Of a stretch of DNA of 62,886 nt, positions 357 to 47,303 are shown piece after piece; the first letter of the stretch is position 1; each line of letters begins with the position of its first letter. The DNA is from an uncultured Pedosphaera sp. GTDB taxonomy: Bacteria; Verrucomicrobiota; Verrucomicrobiia; Limisphaerales; Pedosphaeraceae. The notes beneath the pieces were generated by a model, which worked only from the letters and a program-made list of their open reading frames with translations, had not been told where the DNA came from and did not search any database. Position numbers and translations under genes: made by a program. The DNA lies in assembly GCA_903918755.1 (NCBI GenBank), contig CAIXFN010000010.1, positions 1 through 62,886 on the forward strand, read 5' to 3'.

Positions 357-436
357 CGGCCCGTGAGTAACACCTTATCAGATGCCACAGCCGGACCGCT
401 GGCGCCTTGTTGCCGTTAGATCACCACCTCCCTCCC

Positions 437-3400
437 ATGAGCAAGCGCACGCCAAATAGTCTGCATGTCTTCATCGGCTGTCCCGGCGATATGGCGCCGG
501 AGCGCGACGCTATACGCTTTGCTCGCGAGCACATCGAAAGCGTGGTCTGTCCGGTCAAGTTCACTACTTGGAAAACCAGTGCCTCGGGCGTGGGTGAACC
601 GCAGCGCGTGATTTTTGAAAACGATCCGGTCGAGTCCTTCGATGTGGTGATCATCCTTTTGTGGCATCGCCTCGGTGTTCCCAGCGGGTATCATGATCCA
701 CTCACCAAGCTGGAGATGACGGGGACGGAGGCCGAGTTTGTCGCCGCGTATGATCTGCATCAGTCCAGCGGAGGCCGGAGGCCTCAGGTGTTGCTGTATC
801 GTTGCCAACGCGACCTTCCGCCGGATGTGGATGTGGAGCAACTTGGCAGCGTCCGCAAGTTTTTCAAGCAAACCGAAAAGGGCGGACCGCGTCCCATGCT
901 TTCCGTGGGTTTTAAGACGGCGGAGGACCTCAAGGACATTGTCACGCGAAACCTGCAGACCGCCGCCAAACGCTTGCGCGCCGCGGAGAAGAAGCCAGCG
1001 ACTTCCACTTCGTCGAAAAAGAAAACGCCGAAAGCCTCCGGTTCCATGCCGGACTCTGGGATGATGCTGCATCGGTATTTCACCAATCTTCGCGACCAGT
1101 TCGCCACCTACGAAAACGTCGGCCTGCCGGTTCCGGAGCGCGATGGCAAGGAGGGCGAGCAGGATGTCCCCATCCCCATCCGCAAGCTTTTTGTCGCGCC
1201 TGCCTGCACGGAGGCGCATTTCCGACCTGAGGCATTCGATTCCGCGTTGTGCGATGGGAAGAATCCCGCGACGCCGCTCCTCCCCCGGCTCTCCCCGGCC
1301 AAATCCCGCACTGTCCTCCTTGCCGATCCGGGCATGGGCAAGAGCACGCTCATTCAGTGGCTGATCTCCACCCTTGCCGATGAAGCAGTGCCGCCCGGGG
1401 CCGAGGCACTGCGCGGCGCCATCCCGCTTCCCTTTATCCTCCGCGATCTCGTCGGGCACTTGCCGAAGGATTTAAAGAATTGGAACTGGAACGCATTGGT
1501 GGATGCCTTCCGCCAGTGGCGGCATCGCGGCCGGGGCGCTGCCCTCGCTGCCCCCCTCACGGCTGACGAGGCGTCTTTCCGCTCCCTCCTCGCCTCGGAC
1601 GGGGCCTTCTTCCTCATCGATGGCCTCGATGAAATTGGCGATCCGCAGCGCCGGATCGCCATCCGCAATGCGATTTGGGAAGGGTTCGAGAAGTATCCCC
1701 TGGCCCGGTGGCTGATTACCTCGCGGATTGTGGGGTACGAGCAAGCTGTGGTGGAGCGCAAGTGTATCATCGAGTGGGATCCAACGCAGAAGCTGACTCC
1801 CGAGCTTGCGAAGAGGATGAGGCAGAAGCTTATCGCTGCCGGGATCCCCGAAAGCGAACGGATGCCCTTCGGCGGCGGAAATGTCGAACCGACTTCGGTT
1901 CACCTGCAAATCGCCACACTCCTCCACCTTGCCCCTTTCGACAACGAGCAGCAGCTCAGCTTCGCCCGGAATTGGTTTGTCCCCCGCCTCGGCGACGCGG
2001 CCGGCACGCAGCGGGCGGAAGACTTCATCGCCGCAGTCCATCGGAACGACCATACCCGCACCATCAGCCGGGTTCCCAATCTCCTCTACCTGCTTGCCCT
2101 GCTTTTCCGGCATCGCGCCCGCCTGCCGGACGGGCGCGCACTCGTCTATTCCGCCATCTCTTCCGCCTATCTGGCCGACATTGATTTCCACCGACGCCTG
2201 CCAGATTCTCTCCTCGTCCCCTGGAAGTTTGACGAAAAGGAAGAACTCCTCGCCCTGGTCGCGATGCGAATGCAGGAGATTCGTGCAGCAAAAGGGCAGG
2301 ACGAAAATGGCGATGTCCTAGTCAACCGCCAACAGCTTGAAGAATGGCTGGCACCACGTTTTCGCGGCTCGGGCGATGCTGAAACATGCGCCGAACTGCA
2401 CCGCTTCCTCGACCACATTGCGAACCGCTCCGGCCTCCTGCTCCCGCGCGGCGAAGGCGTGTTTGGATTCGCCCACCTTTCGTTTCAGGAATACTATGCC
2501 GCCTGTTTTCTCGAGAAAGAGTTCCAACGCATCCTCACCGAAAAGTCGCAGGACGCCGCGAATGACATCTTTGGCCCTCCTTCCGCCGCTGCGAAAAAGG
2601 ACGAGGAAAAAATGTTTGCCGAAATGGCCATTCTCCCCGCATGGCACGAGCCGATTCTCTTCCTCGTGGAAAAACTCCGTCAAAGCGCACCTTATACCCG
2701 CCGCATCCTCAGTTGGACCTTCCCCCAACTCGCCGAACCTTTGCAAGGGCCTGAAGGAAGTTCGCTTGCAGGGGTTAAGGACTGGATGCCCTTCACTACC
2801 GCTCGGCTCCTCGCCAGCATCTCCCTTGACCAGGAAGTCAACCTCGACGATGCACAGCGTTCGACGATCTGGCGCAGCCTGTGGCAGGCACACATTGCCG
2901 CGTCTGACGGGGAGTGGGACATCGCTTCTTCCCTCATCGTCTCTGGGAGTCTCTACCAAACGGCCGTGCTCGACGCCGCCGTTGCGCTAAAGCCTGCGAA
3001 ACTCCGCCTGGGTGGCTGTGCTGCATTAACCGACCTCAAGCTCCTCGCGGGGCTGAGTTCCTTGACCTATCTCTCCCTCGACGGGTGCACGGGGTTGAGC
3101 GACCTGAAGCCGCTGGCCGGCTTGGCTTCCTTGACTGAACTATCCCTGAGCGGCTGCACGGGGTTGAGCGACCTGAAGCCGCTGGCCGGCTTGGCTTCCT
3201 TGACTGAACTATCCCTGAGCGGCTGCACGGGAGTGAGCGACCTGAAGCCGCTTGAGGGCTTGGCTTCCTTGACCTTTCTAAATCTCGACGGGTCCACGGG
3301 AGTGGGTGACCTCAAGTCGGTGGCGAGCCTGGGTTCCTTGACCACTCTCTCCCTCGAGAGGTGCACGGGGGTGAGCGACCTCAAGCCGCTGGCAAGCCTG

Positions 3401-3571
3401 GGTGCCTTGACCTATCTCTACCTCAACGGGTGCACGGGGGTGAGCGACCTCAAGCCGCTGGCGGGCTTGGCTTCCTTGAACTATCTCAACCTCAACGGGT
3501 GCATTGGGGTGAGTGACGAGGTTGTGGCGTCGCTGGAGGCGAGCCTGCCGAAACTCACAATCCGCAGATAA
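437..3571 (+). CDS. NLR-like STAND NTPase: DUF4062-like, NACHT, C-terminal LRRs
   Basis: Predicted 1044-residue cytoplasmic STAND ATPase. The N-terminal ~120 residues (VFIGCPGDMAPERDAI onward) resemble DUF4062, an effector-side domain found in bacterial NLR-like proteins. A Lys/Ser/Thr-rich linker follows. The NACHT domain has Walker A GMGKS at residues 299-303 and Walker B FFLIDGLDE at 391-399. Residues ~860-1035 are internalin-like 22-23-residue leucine-rich repeats of the LKPLAGLASL type, the likely sensor. Bacterial NACHT proteins are known antiphage defence proteins, so defence is the inferred role; no phage link is visible here. The gene stands alone, next to repeat-rich DNA. The open frame extends to a TTG at 407, but ATG at 437 is the better start (MSKRTPNSL); no clear Shine-Dalgarno is seen. 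Two LRR units are identical at DNA level. Confidence 0.85.
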   Translation: MSKRTPNSLHVFIGCPGDMAPERDAIRFAREHIESVVCPVKFTTWKTSASGVGEPQRVIFENDPVESFDVVIILLWHRLGVPSGYHDPLTKLEMTGTEAEFVAAYDLHQSSGGRRPQVLLYRCQRDLPPDVDVEQLGSVRKFFKQTEKGGPRPMLSVGFKTAEDLKDIVTRNLQTAAKRLRAAEKKPATSTSSKKKTPKASGSMPDSGMMLHRYFTNLRDQFATYENVGLPVPERDGKEGEQDVPIPIRKLFVAPACTEAHFRPEAFDSALCDGKNPATPLLPRLSPAKSRTVLLADPGMGKSTLIQWLISTLADEAVPPGAEALRGAIPLPFILRDLVGHLPKDLKNWNWNALVDAFRQWRHRGRGAALAAPLTADEASFRSLLASDGAFFLIDGLDEIGDPQRRIAIRNAIWEGFEKYPLARWLITSRIVGYEQAVVERKCIIEWDPTQKLTPELAKRMRQKLIAAGIPESERMPFGGGNVEPTSVHLQIATLLHLAPFDNEQQLSFARNWFVPRLGDAAGTQRAEDFIAAVHRNDHTRTISRVPNLLYLLALLFRHRARLPDGRALVYSAISSAYLADIDFHRRLPDSLLVPWKFDEKEELLALVAMRMQEIRAAKGQDENGDVLVNRQQLEEWLAPRFRGSGDAETCAELHRFLDHIANRSGLLLPRGEGVFGFAHLSFQEYYAACFLEKEFQRILTEKSQDAANDIFGPPSAAAKKDEEKMFAEMAILPAWHEPILFLVEKLRQSAPYTRRILSWTFPQLAEPLQGPEGSSLAGVKDWMPFTTARLLASISLDQEVNLDDAQRSTIWRSLWQAHIAASDGEWDIASSLIVSGSLYQTAVLDAAVALKPAKLRLGGCAALTDLKLLAGLSSLTYLSLDGCTGLSDLKPLAGLASLTELSLSGCTGLSDLKPLAGLASLTELSLSGCTGVSDLKPLEGLASLTFLNLDGSTGVGDLKSVASLGSLTTLSLERCTGVSDLKPLASLGALTYLYLNGCTGVSDLKPLAGLASLNYLNLNGCIGVSDEVVASLEASLPKLTIRR
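3086..3223 (+). repeat. Perfect tandem duplication of a 69-bp LRR unit
   Basis: Bases 3086-3154 and 3155-3223 are identical over 69 bases, each starting TGCACGGGGTTGAGC and encoding one 23-residue leucine-rich repeat. Neighbouring units (from about 3017 to 3520) are related but diverged. Perfect identity, including silent sites, points to a recent duplication. Confidence 0.9.
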
Positions 3572-3806: not shown

Positions 3807-4133
3807 GGCTGCTCTATTAACCTGCCGCGCAACACGTTACCAACCAAATGCGCCTAAATTCCTCCCGTAGCAATTCAAAGCGCCCCAACTCGTGCTAAAA
3901 ATGCATGGGAGCCGATCCGATTTCGGCAACCGCCGTGCCGCCTGCCCTGCATAGCTCAGAGCGAAGCGGGGCCGCCCCGCCAACGCCTGAATTTTGGCCA
4001 CCGGAACCAAAGTTCCGCTCGGCCCGCTCTTTGACATCTTAGAACTGCTGCCTGCATCCGCCAGACAAGCCGAGGCAGCCTCAGAGTGGTGATCATCGCC
4101 GCGTGCCGTCCCAATCGGCACGTGGCCCACCCC
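3807..4133 (+). repeat. Dispersed structured repeat, copy 1 (candidate ncRNA)
   Basis: This ~327-base block is closely similar to 4798-5093 and 46164-46463. Conserved landmarks in order: AACACGTTACCA, TAAATTCCTCCCGTAG, GAGCCGATCCGATTTCGG, AATTTTGGCC, hairpin CGGAAC/GTTCCG (4002-4007 / 4012-4017), CTCTTTGACATCTTA, stem GCTGCCT/AGGCAGC (4047-4053 / 4073-4079), and hairpin CGTGCCG/CGGCACG (4102-4108 / 4116-4122) with loop TCCCAAT. The strand is inferred from T-G pairs in the other copies, which pair only in a + strand transcript. Function unknown; a MITE-like element is the alternative. Confidence 0.7.
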
Positions 4134-4237
4134 AATCGTCCGCCAGCCGATCAAGCCAGCTGCGTGATCGATATACCCGCACCGACGTCCTTTCGTCCGC
4201 CCTGCGGGGTTGGTGCCCGCGCCGCCAAATACCGGCG

Positions 4238-4269
4238 AGTCCAAGTTAAACAAACTTAGTCCAGTTTCG
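4238..4269. repeat. Nine-copy short motif, copy 1 (AAACAAAC type)
   Basis: Reads AGTCCAAGTT + AAACAAAC + TTAGTCCAGTTTCG. It lies about 100 bases after repeat module 1, in the same relative position as motif copy 2 after module 2. Confidence 0.7.
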
Positions 4270-4469
4270 TTACCTCCGCGACCTCCGCGGCTCCGCGTGA
4301 GAATCTCCCCGAAGTCCCCTCTAACCACCCGGCCGCCTGCCCTGCGTCCTGTCCGGCGCAAGGGGTTTGCCCGGCATACCTGCAAAGCGAAGCCGGGTCG
4401 CTTCCCCGCCGGTCCGTGTTCCATCGTTCCGGGCTTGCGGGGCCATTGGTCAGGGGTTAAATTGCAAGC

Positions 4470-4643
4470 ATGAGCGACAAAGAGATGGTCATCGAAGCAA
4501 TCCGCCAGCTTCCCGAGACCTCCACGCTGGACGAAATCAGCGAAGATGTGGCCATATTGGCCGCGTTGCAACGTGCAAAGGCGGCATCGGCTGCTGGTCG
4601 GGTCGTCGCTCATGATAAGGTCAAGGAGCGGTTGGCCGCATAG
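4470..4643 (+). CDS. Small orphan antitoxin-like protein (57 aa)
   Basis: An ATG at 4470 opens a 57-codon frame ending TAG at 4643, starting MSDKEMVIEAIRQLPETS and ending HDKVKERLAA. The pattern 'xxEAIRQLPxxxTLDEISEDVAILAALQRAxxAxxAGRVVxHDxVKxRL' matches a common family of small antitoxins usually encoded just before a RelE/ParE-type toxin; in such proteins this part is helical and neutralises the toxin. No toxin frame follows here: the next ~150 bases have no convincing start and then repeat module 2 begins. It is therefore an orphan antitoxin or the remnant of a toxin-antitoxin pair. The upstream GGGG is a weak ribosome site. The codons look protein-coding (few rare codons, amphipathic helix), and no other frame makes sense. 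Confidence 0.6.
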   Translation: MSDKEMVIEAIRQLPETSTLDEISEDVAILAALQRAKAASAAGRVVAHDKVKERLAA

Positions 4644-4797
4644 ATTTAGGAAAGTGCCCGTCAGGATCCTCACTTGCCGCCGCCTCCCCCCGTTTGAGTT
4701 TTGGTACGGCACGTCCTCGGTGTTGCGAAAAGGGGTGAAGTCTCACCTGCGCCAATCTCCCCCCGGCATCATCCAAATCGATCGCCGGTTGCAAAAA

Positions 4798-5093
4798 GCC
4801 ATCTCCATTTGCCTGCCACCCAACACGTTACCAAACCAAGTGCGCCTAAATTCCTCCCGTAGCAATTCAAACCGTCCCGACGCGCGCCAATAGTGCTTGG
4901 GAGCCGAGCCAGTTTCGACAACCGCCGTGCCGCTGCCCGGCAACGCCAGAATTTTGGCCCACCGGAACCAAGGTTCCGCCCGGCCTGCTCTTTGACATCT
5001 TAAAACTGCTGCCTGCATCCGCCAGACGCGACGGGGCAGCCGTGGAACATGGCCGTCGCCGTGTGCCGTCCCAACCGGCACGCGGCCCACCGC
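4798..5093 (+). repeat. Dispersed structured repeat, copy 2 (candidate ncRNA)
   Basis: Second copy of the module at 3807-4133, about 300 bases. Hairpins are kept: CGGAACC/GGTTCCG (4963-4969 / 4972-4978), stem GCTGCC/GGCAGC (5008-5013 / 5035-5040), and GTGCCG/CGGCAC (5063-5068 / 5076-5081) with loop TCCCAAC. The outermost pair of the last hairpin is T-G here (5062/5082) where copy 1 has C-G, a change that keeps pairing only in + strand RNA. Confidence 0.7.
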
Positions 5094-5180: not shown

Positions 5181-5515
5181 GTCCAGGTTAAACAAACTTA
5201 ATCCAGTTTCGCATCCGGCACTGGCTGAATGCCCGTCACCGTCTTCGATCACGGCTACTTGCATTTCTTTTGTGAGCTTTGGTGCACTCTCGTGGCCAAT
5301 CAACCTCCGGAATTTCTGTCGAAGTCCAGGTTCCGGACACTTAATCCAATTTCGCCGCCATCACTGGCGGCGTCCACCTCGCCGATGTTTCGTCCTCCCG
5401 CGGCGACTGGGTTCACCGTCGAATCAGTTCCCTTTTGCGGTTCTTGCGCATCTTGCGGCCAAGCAAACTCCGTTTCTTCCAGCCAAATTCCAACCTTTGG
5501 ACACTTAACCTGGCC
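5181..5515. repeat. Nine-copy short motif, copies 2-4
   Basis: Copy 2 at 5181-5211 (core AAACAAAC), copy 3 at 5323-5354 (core CCGGACAC) and copy 4 at 5487-5515 (core TTGGACAC). Copies 3 and 4 are preceded by a TGCGGCCAATCAACTCCGG-like block about 25 bases upstream, showing that the repeated unit is about 75 bases long. Confidence 0.65.
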
Positions 5516-45162: not shown

Positions 45163-45846
45163 TTAGCCCGCTTGTTTCGCTTTAATCTCCGTGTAAAGCC
45201 AGGCCCGGGCGTAAGCCCAATACCGTTTCGCGGTGGGCACCGAAATTCCCATGACTTCGGCCGCCTCCTCGAAGGTCAGGCCGGTAAAGTAACGTAATTT
45301 GGCCAACTCGGCCTTTTGCGGAGCTTCGGCAGCCAACCGATCGATGGCCTCATGCACCGCCAGTAATTCCTCATCCTCCGCGATGCTCGCGATTTGCACA
45401 TCAGCGAAGTTTACCCGCTTCAATTCGCCCCCGTGGCGTAGGGATTGTTTCCGCTTGGCGGCGTCGATCAGGATGTGCCGCATGGCCTGCGCCGCAGTCG
45501 CGAAAAAATGGGTGCGCCCCGTAAATTTGGCTGCGCCGTTTGCAGCAAGTCGCAACCAGACCTCGTGGACGAGCGCCGTGGGTTGCAGGGTGTGGCCGGC
45601 TGCCTGACTGGCCATTTTTTGCGCTGCCAGTTTGCGCAATTCCCCGTAAACCAAGGGAAGCAATTCTTCTGCTGATTGAACAGGCTTGCCGCCCTCGTCC
45701 GTGGTTGGTGCTGGGTGACGCGACTCACAGCTTGCCGCTGGTTCCGCCGACAGCAAACCCTGGCCGACGCAGGTCCAGCAAACCCCGTTCCGAGCGGTCG
45801 TGGTCAGCCCCGCGCCGCAGCGCGAGCACAAGAGGTCAGAAATCAT
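45163..45846 (-). CDS. ECF-type RNA polymerase sigma factor with N-terminal zinc ribbon
   Basis: 227 residues. The ECF part (~58-225; SAEELLPLVYGELRKLAAQKM, HTLQPTALVHEVWLRL, HFFATAAQAMRHILIDAAKRK, then YFTGLTFEEAAEVMGISVPTAKRYWAYARAWL) matches the TIGR02999-like subgroup common in Acidobacteriota, Planctomycetota and Verrucomicrobiota, usually encoded beside Ser/Thr kinases. Unusually, the protein starts with a zinc-ribbon-like CSRCG..CWTCVG (Cys7/10 and Cys23/26) joined by a linker. The ribbon may be a sensor or anti-sigma-like cap. No anti-sigma gene is adjacent; the kinase is the likely regulator, as known for related ECF groups controlled by phosphorylation. Confidence 0.9.
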   Translation of the reverse strand: MISDLLCSRCGAGLTTTARNGVCWTCVGQGLLSAEPAASCESRHPAPTTDEGGKPVQSAEELLPLVYGELRKLAAQKMASQAAGHTLQPTALVHEVWLRLAANGAAKFTGRTHFFATAAQAMRHILIDAAKRKQSLRHGGELKRVNFADVQIASIAEDEELLAVHEAIDRLAAEAPQKAELAKLRYFTGLTFEEAAEVMGISVPTAKRYWAYARAWLYTEIKAKQAG

Positions 45847-46163: not shown

Positions 46164-46463
46164 GGATGGCTCCTATTTGCCTACCGCGCAATATGTTACC
46201 AGCCAAATGCCATTAAATTCCTCCCGTAGTAAATCAAACCGCCCCAATTCGTGCTAAATGTGGTTTGGAGCCGATCCGATTTCGGTAACAGCCATGCCGC
46301 CGCCCGGCACGGCCTGAATTTTTGGCCTAACGGAACCAGAGTTCCGCCCGGCCTGCTCTTTGACATACTGGATAACAGACGTCTGCATCCGGCAGACGAA
46401 AGCAAGCAGTCGCCCGCAGGCGGTCATCGCCGCGTGCCGTCCCAACCGGCGCGCGGCCCATGC
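46164..46463 (+). repeat. Dispersed structured repeat, copy 3 (candidate ncRNA)
   Basis: Third copy of the module at 3807-4133, over 41 kb away. Kept: TAAATTCCTCCCGTAG, GAGCCGATCCGATTTCGG, hairpin CGGAAC/GTTCCG (46331-46336 / 46341-46346), CTCTTTGACAT, and hairpin CGTGCCG/CGGCGCG (46433-46439 / 46447-46453) with loop TCCCAAC. In that stem an A has become G, giving a T-G pair that still pairs in + strand RNA. The middle stem is rebuilt as CGTCTGC/GCAGACG (46380-46386 / 46392-46398). Confidence 0.7.
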
Positions 46464-46587: not shown

Positions 46588-47303
46588 AGTCCAGGTTTCG
46601 GACACTTAACCTGCCCGGCGTAGCTCCCAGCGTAGTCGGGTCCAGCTTCAGGCCATCCCGAGCGGAACGACCATCGCCTGCCTCATTTTTTCCGGTAGTT
46701 TGGTTCGTTTTTGCGATGTTTGCGCCTTCTCGCGGCTAATGAATTCCGGGTTTCCCCCCGAATCCAACCTCCGGACACTTAATCCAGTTTCGAGCTGAGG
46801 TCGGACGGAATTGGGCTTGCCGGCTTCGGTCCCCCCAAATCTCGACCTTTTGGCGAATTTCATGCATTATCGTGGCCAAACCATTTCCGGGCTTCCCGGC
46901 GGAGTCCAGGTTAAACAAACTTAATCCAGTTTCAGGCGACCTCGATCCGAATGGACATCGCCTGCACCGGTTTCCGGAGATTTGGTTCCTTTCTGCGACT
47001 TTTGCGGCCAATCAACTCCCGGCTTCCGCCCCCAAGTCCAGGTTAAACAAACTTAATCCAGTTTCGCACTTTCAGCGCTTTGGGATGATTTTTTGGGGGA
47101 ATGTCCTGGGGCGTCGCGGAGGACGCTTTGCCCCAGGCTGAGGGAGGTCGGGCCTTCAGCCCTTGGGGATGGGGAAATTGAATTTGTGGATTTCCCTCGG
47201 TCAGCCGTAAATTACCTCCATTGAGCGATTCTTGCCTTCTGCGGCCAATCAATCTCGGGCGTTCCCGGCCCAGTCCAGGTTTCGGACACTTAATCCAGTT
47301 ACC
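46588..47303. repeat. Nine-copy short motif, copies 5-9
   Basis: Copies at 46588-46616 (core TCGGACAC), 46761-46792 (CCGGACAC), 46903-46934 (AAACAAAC), 47035-47066 (AAACAAAC) and 47272-47303 (TCGGACAC). Flanks AGTCCAGGTT and TTAATCCAGTTTCG are nearly invariant while the 8-base core switches between two forms. Spacing from one to the next is 173, 142, 132 and 237 bases. Copies 6-9 carry the upstream GCGGCCAATCAACTCCCGG-like block. Confidence 0.7.

Follow-up and report, generated by a model that had tools for sequence, protein, structure and literature searches.

Three intergenic copies of a module (c1, c2, and c3) in the window, that is, the whole 62,886-nt stretch of DNA analyzed here, are fairly probably ORF-less members of a family of dispersed and probably mobile transcription units, each headed by an antitermination leader of the rRNA type. 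The family comprises ~60 scattered, mostly noncoding units in the genome from which the window comes (G000; 7.19 Mb, 118 contigs), and its common layout consists of a promoter-like block, hairpins or a gene, a hairpin ending 1 to 4 nt before the 12-mer GCTCTTTGACAT (here called boxA), and, usually, an array in which ~140-nt units are repeated in tandem on that strand.

A dispersed family of boxA-bearing units

A reading made from the sequence alone had proposed a three-copy module at these places, and such a module is indeed present there, its blocks in identical order in c1, c2, and c3 (Table 1). When c1 was searched against G000 and the best 40 of 120 candidates were scored, c2 and c3 were recovered at 76% and 73% identity (E values of 2.6e-66 and 3.0e-48, respectively) among at least 32 matches, 29 of which fall on other contigs, several as fragments of a single copy. 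The sequence-only reading placed the copies correctly but drew them too short: similarity continues for ~125 nt farther upstream in a subset that includes c3, and an array lies downstream, extending after c2 and c3 to ~5512 and ~47303, respectively. The intergenic position of all three was borne out on reading, the overlapping ORFs looking spurious by inspection. Across G000, boxA lies within 420 nt after the promoter-like block in 53 of 62 blocks, mostly in units of sequence types A and B, the latter a divergent second type found by a module-profile search of other fetched array sites; some of the nine blocks without boxA in that range are gene bearing. At least 10 further copies open a gene for a protein resembling the phage small terminase/Mu Gp27.

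Table 1. Features of copies c1, c2, and c3, in window positions
Copy	Feature	Position	Strand	Basis or remark
c1	Promoter-like block, -35 side, imperfect palindrome AAATTCCTCCCGTAGCAATTC	3856..3876	+	TGnTA at 16 nt in 59/65 blocks
c1	-10-like TGCTA	3893..3897	+	Spacing from promoter-like block
c1	Hairpin H1, GCCGA-TCCGATT-TCGGC	3911..3927	+	86% of cells paired in 16 copies, without covariation
c1	Hairpin H2, boxB-like, ends 1 nt before boxA	3996..4024	+	z -2.1
c1	boxA GCTCTTTGACAT	4026..4037	+	69 sites in genome, reversed control 0
c1	Hairpin H3, 11 bp, loop TCCCAAT	4098..4126	+	97% of cells paired in 21 copies
c1	Single array motif (TCCAAGTTAAACAAACTTAGTCCAGTTTCG)	4240..4269	+	1-mismatch match 4254-4269
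c2	Promoter-like block	4848..4868	+	-10 position 4885-4889 = CGCCA, decayed
c2	Hairpin H1	4903..4919	+	Sequence reading, type-A H1 search
c2	Hairpin H2 before boxA	4956..4985	+	z -3.3
c2	boxA	4987..4998	+	Exact 12-mer site
c2	Hairpin H3 with T5062-G5082	5058..5086	+	Type-A alignment
c2	Array	5182..5512	+	Unit motifs 5182-5211, 5325-5354, about 5490-5512
c3	Promoter-like block	46215..46235	+	Block pattern
c3	-10-like TGCTA	46252..46256	+	Spacing from block
c3	Hairpin H1	46270..46286	+	Sequence reading, type-A H1 search
c3	Hairpin H2 before boxA	46324..46353	+	z -2.9
c3	boxA	46355..46366	+	Exact 12-mer site
c3	Middle hairpin CGTCTGC/GCAGACG	46380..46398	+	Equivalent six-pair helix 62% paired over 21 copies
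c3	Hairpin H3 with T46435-G46451	46429..46457	+	Type-A alignment
c3	Array, 5 motifs	46590..47303	+	Starts 46590, 46764, 46905, 47037, 47274; without Tandem Repeats Finder call

Beyond this genome, a nucleotide search of 57 relatives, with the best 12 or fewer candidates per genome scored, gave no match to the module DNA, nor did a plasmid collection to the element; viral contigs had no match to the exact promoter-block pattern, and a contig collection returned a single match, in Gelidibacter, near chance expectation by our own estimate. No RNA family had been recognized in the module, and the Rfam comparison agreed: it gave no match above the gathering threshold in the window and, in the fetched loci, only sub-threshold ones that lie outside the module, on which grounds identity with an Rfam family was rejected. 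Matches of this kind to Acido-Lenti-1 RNA (RF01687) were seen in L104 (1785-2230; three, 200 nt apart, behind boxA and on the opposite strand, at 28.5 to 33.7 bits against a gathering score of 37), in L013 (610-642), and in L007 (3137-3195, on the far side of the module).

A promoter-like block and the gene-bearing copies

The palindromic 5' block is conserved and stem-like, but a place within a promoter suits it better, because TGnTA follows the block end at a fixed distance (16 nt in 59 of 65 blocks, 15 nt in one, and no other offset from 0 to 49) and because an ATG stands 10 to 11 nt after TGnTA in all 10 gene-bearing copies examined, as in leaderless genes; an RNA stem as the main role of the palindrome was rejected for the same two reasons. 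We take the block to be a putative promoter, perhaps with an operator, and several type B and gene-bearing copies have the perfect palindrome ATTCCTACCGTAGGAAT within it. The decayed -10 position of c2, which reads CGCCA, suggests that this copy has probably lost its promoter, so that not every copy need be active. The strict promoter pattern had 12 sites in G000, 9 in G001 (a second species of the genus), and 1 in G262; the other 290 of 293 genomes had none, and controls stood at 0.

Where promoter and boxA lie 1.2 to 1.6 kb apart (six copies), an ORF is present. The complete ORFs read encode 364 to 443 aa, 2 of the 10 examined starts running into contig ends, and seven of the proteins align as two groups. 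Their N-terminal ~150 residues resemble the Mu Gp27/small terminase family (PHROG_426, best E value 1.6e-10), whereas the match to Phage_Mu_Gp27 (PF11985) falls below the Pfam gathering score (best 22 bits among three proteins, against 28) and the C-terminal part is long and divergent. An AlphaFold model of a gene-bearing ORF (pLDDT 68.9, pTM 0.36) is confident mainly in the N-terminal helices; Foldseek of the model against the PDB gave a best E value of 1.8, and a PDB sequence search with the ORF gave no match. In 45 of the 293 genomes of the order the ORF has relatives, and 14 of 30 relatives matched PHROG_426 at 1e-3. A boxA-like site no more than 500 nt past the gene was found at 1 of 28 loci outside G000 (in G242), three of the 28 having no sequence left there. 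Among the gene-bearing copies, L065 lacks an exact boxA and that of L224 is changed. At least four G001 copies have the promoter ahead of such an ORF, and an ORF-less G001 copy has the promoter, boxA 104 nt on, and then C-rich repeats.

boxA and its likeness to rRNA leaders

Outside the stems, GCTCTTTGACAT is the most conserved block. It has 69 exact sites in G000, at least two of which (L101 and L109) look by reading like chance sites within genes, and the reversed motif has none. boxA is the NusB/S10 site, with a gammaproteobacterial consensus of GYTCTTTAANA (PMC5725501), and in rrn leaders it is preceded by boxB (PMC10250234). From that consensus GCTCTTTGACA differs once, by G for A; the rrn leaders of relatives share the G.

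Of 30 genomes searched for 16S, 8 had a match and 7, all of the same order, a readable 16S start. In all seven, a boxA-like site lies ~115 to 150 nt before that start, reading GYTCTTTGARA in six and GGTCTTTGAAA in one (the site of the same-family genome G003 is GCTCTTTGAAAA), and runs on into conserved TTGTGCGAT; by eye, five of the seven have a clear hairpin immediately ahead of the site. No 16S gene was found in the G000 assembly, hence its own rrn boxA is unreadable. An internal control is provided by the start of contig C84 (G000; L105 1-420), where an identical 12-mer stands 8 nt after the cas2 stop, behind a hairpin, in the order Cas4-Cas1 gene, cas2, boxA, and then what reads as the first CRISPR repeat/leader. 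Resembling the 16S-leader boxA of relatives and identical to this cas2-side site, the 12-mer is a likely boxA at which Nus factors would bind.

Alternatively, the copies could be a non-autonomous repeat at the DNA level, mobilized in trans by the enzymes of gene-bearing relatives, with promoter and boxA as functionless passengers from a decayed gene-bearing ancestor; we consider this unlikely. The copies are dispersed in both orientations relative to their neighbors, gene-bearing and gene-less copies have the promoter and, mostly, boxA and array in common, and one of the three window copies has a decayed -10, all of which would suit such a repeat, as would the contig ends 41 to 176 nt on at 5 of 9 pattern sites in G001, such as near-identical repeats would leave. 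Passengers should drift, however, and the promoter spacing has been kept in the great majority of blocks, while boxA is nearly invariant in 21 type-A copies that are mostly 68 to 78% identical to c1. Nor were terminal inverted repeats, a mark of a MITE, present at both ends among the five longest inverted pairs in each of four elements, and element ends are not sharp. Comparison with G001 on the AA-kinase side gave no clean empty site, because synteny there breaks at the element.

Hairpins, folding, and covariation

If the units do carry an antitermination leader of the rrn type, a boxB-like hairpin belongs 5' of boxA, and one is indicated there by folding and, in type B but not in type A, by covariation. 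At 78 boxA-like sites, the 42 nt directly upstream of boxA had a mean z of -1.85 (SE 0.15) against dinucleotide shuffles, versus +0.10 for control windows farther upstream and -0.36 downstream of boxA; the antisense of the pre-boxA window gave -1.89, so the strand cannot be picked from folding alone. The pre-boxA hairpins of type A, type B, and gene-bearing copies differ in sequence, and most of them stop 1 to 4 nt short of boxA. The last hairpin (H3) proved to be as the sequence-only reading described it, base by base in all three copies, and the middle stem differs between copies as claimed, being a perfect 7-bp hairpin in c3, with c1 able to pair GCTGCC/GGCAGC.

On the conserved stems as RNA, covariation gave a divided answer, with helices drawn in both types from the same alignments, which favors the percentage paired. 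In type A it was not above shuffles, either overall (21 copies; score 105/500) or in the first stem, H1 (16 copies; 500/500), for which alignment A3 omits 2 of the 18 matches listed (one false, one a partial copy) and the search expression missed further type-A copies. In the type B pre-boxA hairpin (26 copies, the pairs at columns 9-50 and 10-49 left out), pairs changed on both sides numbered 5 against 1.5 in shuffles (2/500) with a score of 10/500, and further pair types were not above shuffles (337/500). The T-G changes of H3 had been taken to point to RNA from the + strand. An excess of G-T over A-C cells does hold in type A (31 to 14) but not in type B (17 to 22 over all 11 pairs tried, those two included), where 12 of the 22 A-C cells come from one doubtful pair. 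RNA from the + strand is thus probable by the order of boxA, the same-strand arrays, and the type-A excess, though not by a robust asymmetry in type B.

The sequence-only reading saw in the module a self-contained structured noncoding RNA, its fold being the functional product and the array incidental. That the RNAalifold energy of type A lies at z -4.2 on the + strand and -3.1 on the - strand (19 copies against 60 column shuffles, with 3 of 22 rows, L020, L017, and L024, dropped) would favor such an RNA, as would the type-A G-T excess and the strong fold of the boxA element of G056/G093 described below. We nevertheless give it a low probability: type A is without covariation, type A, type B, and gene-bearing copies share the promoter, boxA, and pre-boxA hairpin but not the rest, and an array motif stands within 600 nt after boxA at 58 of the 72 boxA sites with enough flank. 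The module looks more like the leader of a dispersed transcription unit.

Downstream arrays and orientation

The arrays that such a leader would serve consist of units of ~140 to 170 nt bounded by TCCAGGTT-(CCGG or AAAC)-ACACTTAATCCAGTTTCG. With one mismatch allowed, ACTTAATCCAGTTTCG has 156 occurrences in G000 (reversed control, 1), and the array motif GGACACTTAATCCAGTTTCG, at up to 2 mismatches, was absent from all 57 relatives searched. Of 149 distinct array motifs, 139 have boxA on their own strand no more than 2.5 kb upstream; the other 10 come from five fetched stretches, of which two start less than 400 nt from the motif. Seen from boxA, 14 of the 72 sites are without an array motif within 600 nt downstream, and the upstream window has one at 4 of 72. 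The 600 nt downstream of boxA have 34% C and 25% G, with C exceeding G at 68 of 72 sites, versus 30%, 27%, and 49 of 72 upstream. Rho prefers C-rich, G-poor untranslated RNA.

The array of L050 has a period of 140 with 79 to 82% matches, and the others were read by eye. Tandem Repeats Finder called neither window array and found no long period in L203 of G001, so that "array" in the window and in L203 rests on reading and the shared motif. Irregular threefold quasi-repeats (TTTTGCGATTCTTGCGCCTTTTGCGGC; CACAGATGGACACAGATAAACACAGATGG) were seen behind boxA in G000 arrays, in L203 of G001, and in L133 and L137 of G056, which are unrelated lineages. A strict search for 8- to 13-nt quasi-repeats behind boxA was largely negative (0 of 67 in G000, 0 of 15 in G056/G093, 3 of 10 in G274, 2 of 11 in G242), so the impression that they always follow boxA is not established.

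A leader with boxA and an array in one direction, as after cas2 in G000, would also be expected if a CRISPR-like leader drove a long precursor to be cut into guide units, but the units are ~140-nt, mutually diverged copies (as in L050) rather than unique spacers between short identical repeats, and this very improbable reading was rejected. Just as remote is a role as 5' leaders or terminator-type regulators of neighboring genes: the copies looked at do lie between genes, yet the neighbors occur in all orientations, on which ground a leader of the next gene was rejected, and the arrays of c2 and c3 face 3' ends of genes, the former pointing at that of an AA-kinase/PUA gene ~500 nt on (6012) and the latter ending 36 nt from that of a 2026-aa gene.

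boxA elements elsewhere in the order

Among the 293 sampled genomes of the order, only four have at least 19 exact boxA sites: G000 (69), G056 (35), G242 (21), and G274 (19), with the reversed motif at 0 in each. G056 and its congener G093 carry a different multicopy boxA element (L128-L144), in which a conserved 5' part, boxA, a variable middle, and a conserved 3' part follow one another. With the middle left out, the fold of 14 copies has 90 pairs, 26 of them with changes on both sides, and z of -5.4 for the boxA strand versus +0.4 for its complement (40 shuffles per strand); its 286 G-U against 22 A-C cells are partly built in, given a G-rich strand and pairs drawn from the alignment itself, which does not apply to the difference in z. 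No Rfam match to E 0.5 was found in the seven loci given, and the element is a clear structured-RNA candidate.

In G274, of another family (L225-L247, odd numbers), 10 of 12 loci have an unrelated -35-like TTGTTGC with TGnTA 16 nt away, the remaining two being one without the TTGTTGC block and one cut off; closely after it come a short hairpin with paired base changes (GCCG..CGGC / GCCC..GGGC) and then boxA. In G242 (L226-L248, even numbers, and L176), a partly conserved block lies downstream of many of the 21 exact boxA sites, and L176 has a Gp27-like gene and then a long hairpin whose loop holds a boxA-like site.

Proposed mechanism and relation to known systems

Read from sequence features as transcription units with an rRNA-type antitermination leader, the copies would work as follows. 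Each intact unit would start at its own promoter, with the block around the -35 and TGnTA as the -10, to judge by the spacing and the position of the ATG. ORF-less copies would make RNA, which in type A would begin just upstream of H1; at least 10 sister copies would instead begin a leaderless small-terminase/Mu-Gp27-like gene 10 to 11 nt after TGnTA. The hairpin and nascent boxA RNA would recruit NusB-S10 and other Nus factors, as the likeness to rrn leaders and the cas2-side identity suggest, and the Nus-loaded RNA polymerase would resist Rho and so cross the untranslated, C-rich array of ~140-nt units. More speculatively, copies may spread, perhaps with the Gp27-like protein. A wider proposal, which we hold tentatively and with more doubt than belief, is that several lineages of the order carry unnamed multicopy mobile elements that captured the rRNA antitermination signal for end-to-end transcription as long untranslated RNAs, and that, in the genus of the window, forms with the gene code for a terminase-like DNA-binding protein able to recognize the palindrome or arrays and to spread or package the elements.

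Known settings of Nus-factor antitermination are rRNA operons and lambdoid phages, together with some mRNA leaders and the leaders of CRISPR arrays. A 2017 survey that widened this list states that noncoding RNAs were left aside (PMC5725501). Like the units here, the rrn leader, with its boxB-boxA-boxC, has a hairpin and then boxA in an untranslated leader (PMC10250234), whereas the units precede a repeat array rather than rRNA. CRISPR leaders that bear boxA (Stringer et al., cited in PMC7862264) likewise place it ahead of a long untranslated repeat array, but the units here are without short repeats and unique spacers and occupy about 60 loci. The BOX element of Streptococcus pneumoniae, with its composite A-(B)n-C layout, is a possible parallel: it too is a composite intergenic repeat with a fixed module, tandem units in varying number, and a predicted RNA fold (PMC3049150), yet its "boxA" shares the name only and is not a Nus site, and the units here are ~140 nt and have gene-bearing forms. 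Searches of the open-license PMC literature gave no description of such elements, which does not in itself prove absence, nor was the joining of a boxA leader, a composite intergenic repeat, and a phage-type gene, each of a known kind, found described there. If the reading as antitermination-led transcription units is true, the Nus complex would, with dozens of boxA units lying outside rRNA in a genome, serve a large class of untranslated repeats, and Nus antitermination would explain how these repeats escape Rho; the 12-base boxA motif offers a handle for finding such units.

Other features of the window

Adjoining c1 and c2, positions 407-3571 encode a NACHT and leucine-rich-repeat protein of the STAND type, possibly with a role in defense, and include a 69-bp repeat tract at 3031-3517. 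Between c1 and c2 lies a small ORF (4470-4643; 57 aa), antitoxin-like by eye and without a Pfam match, part of whose DNA matches G001 at 76%. Directly upstream of c3 and pointing away from it is an ECF sigma factor gene (45166-45846; PF07638). A stretch of ~45 to 55 nt at 219-274 matches several places in G001 at 84 to 96% identity and constitutes another short dispersed repeat.
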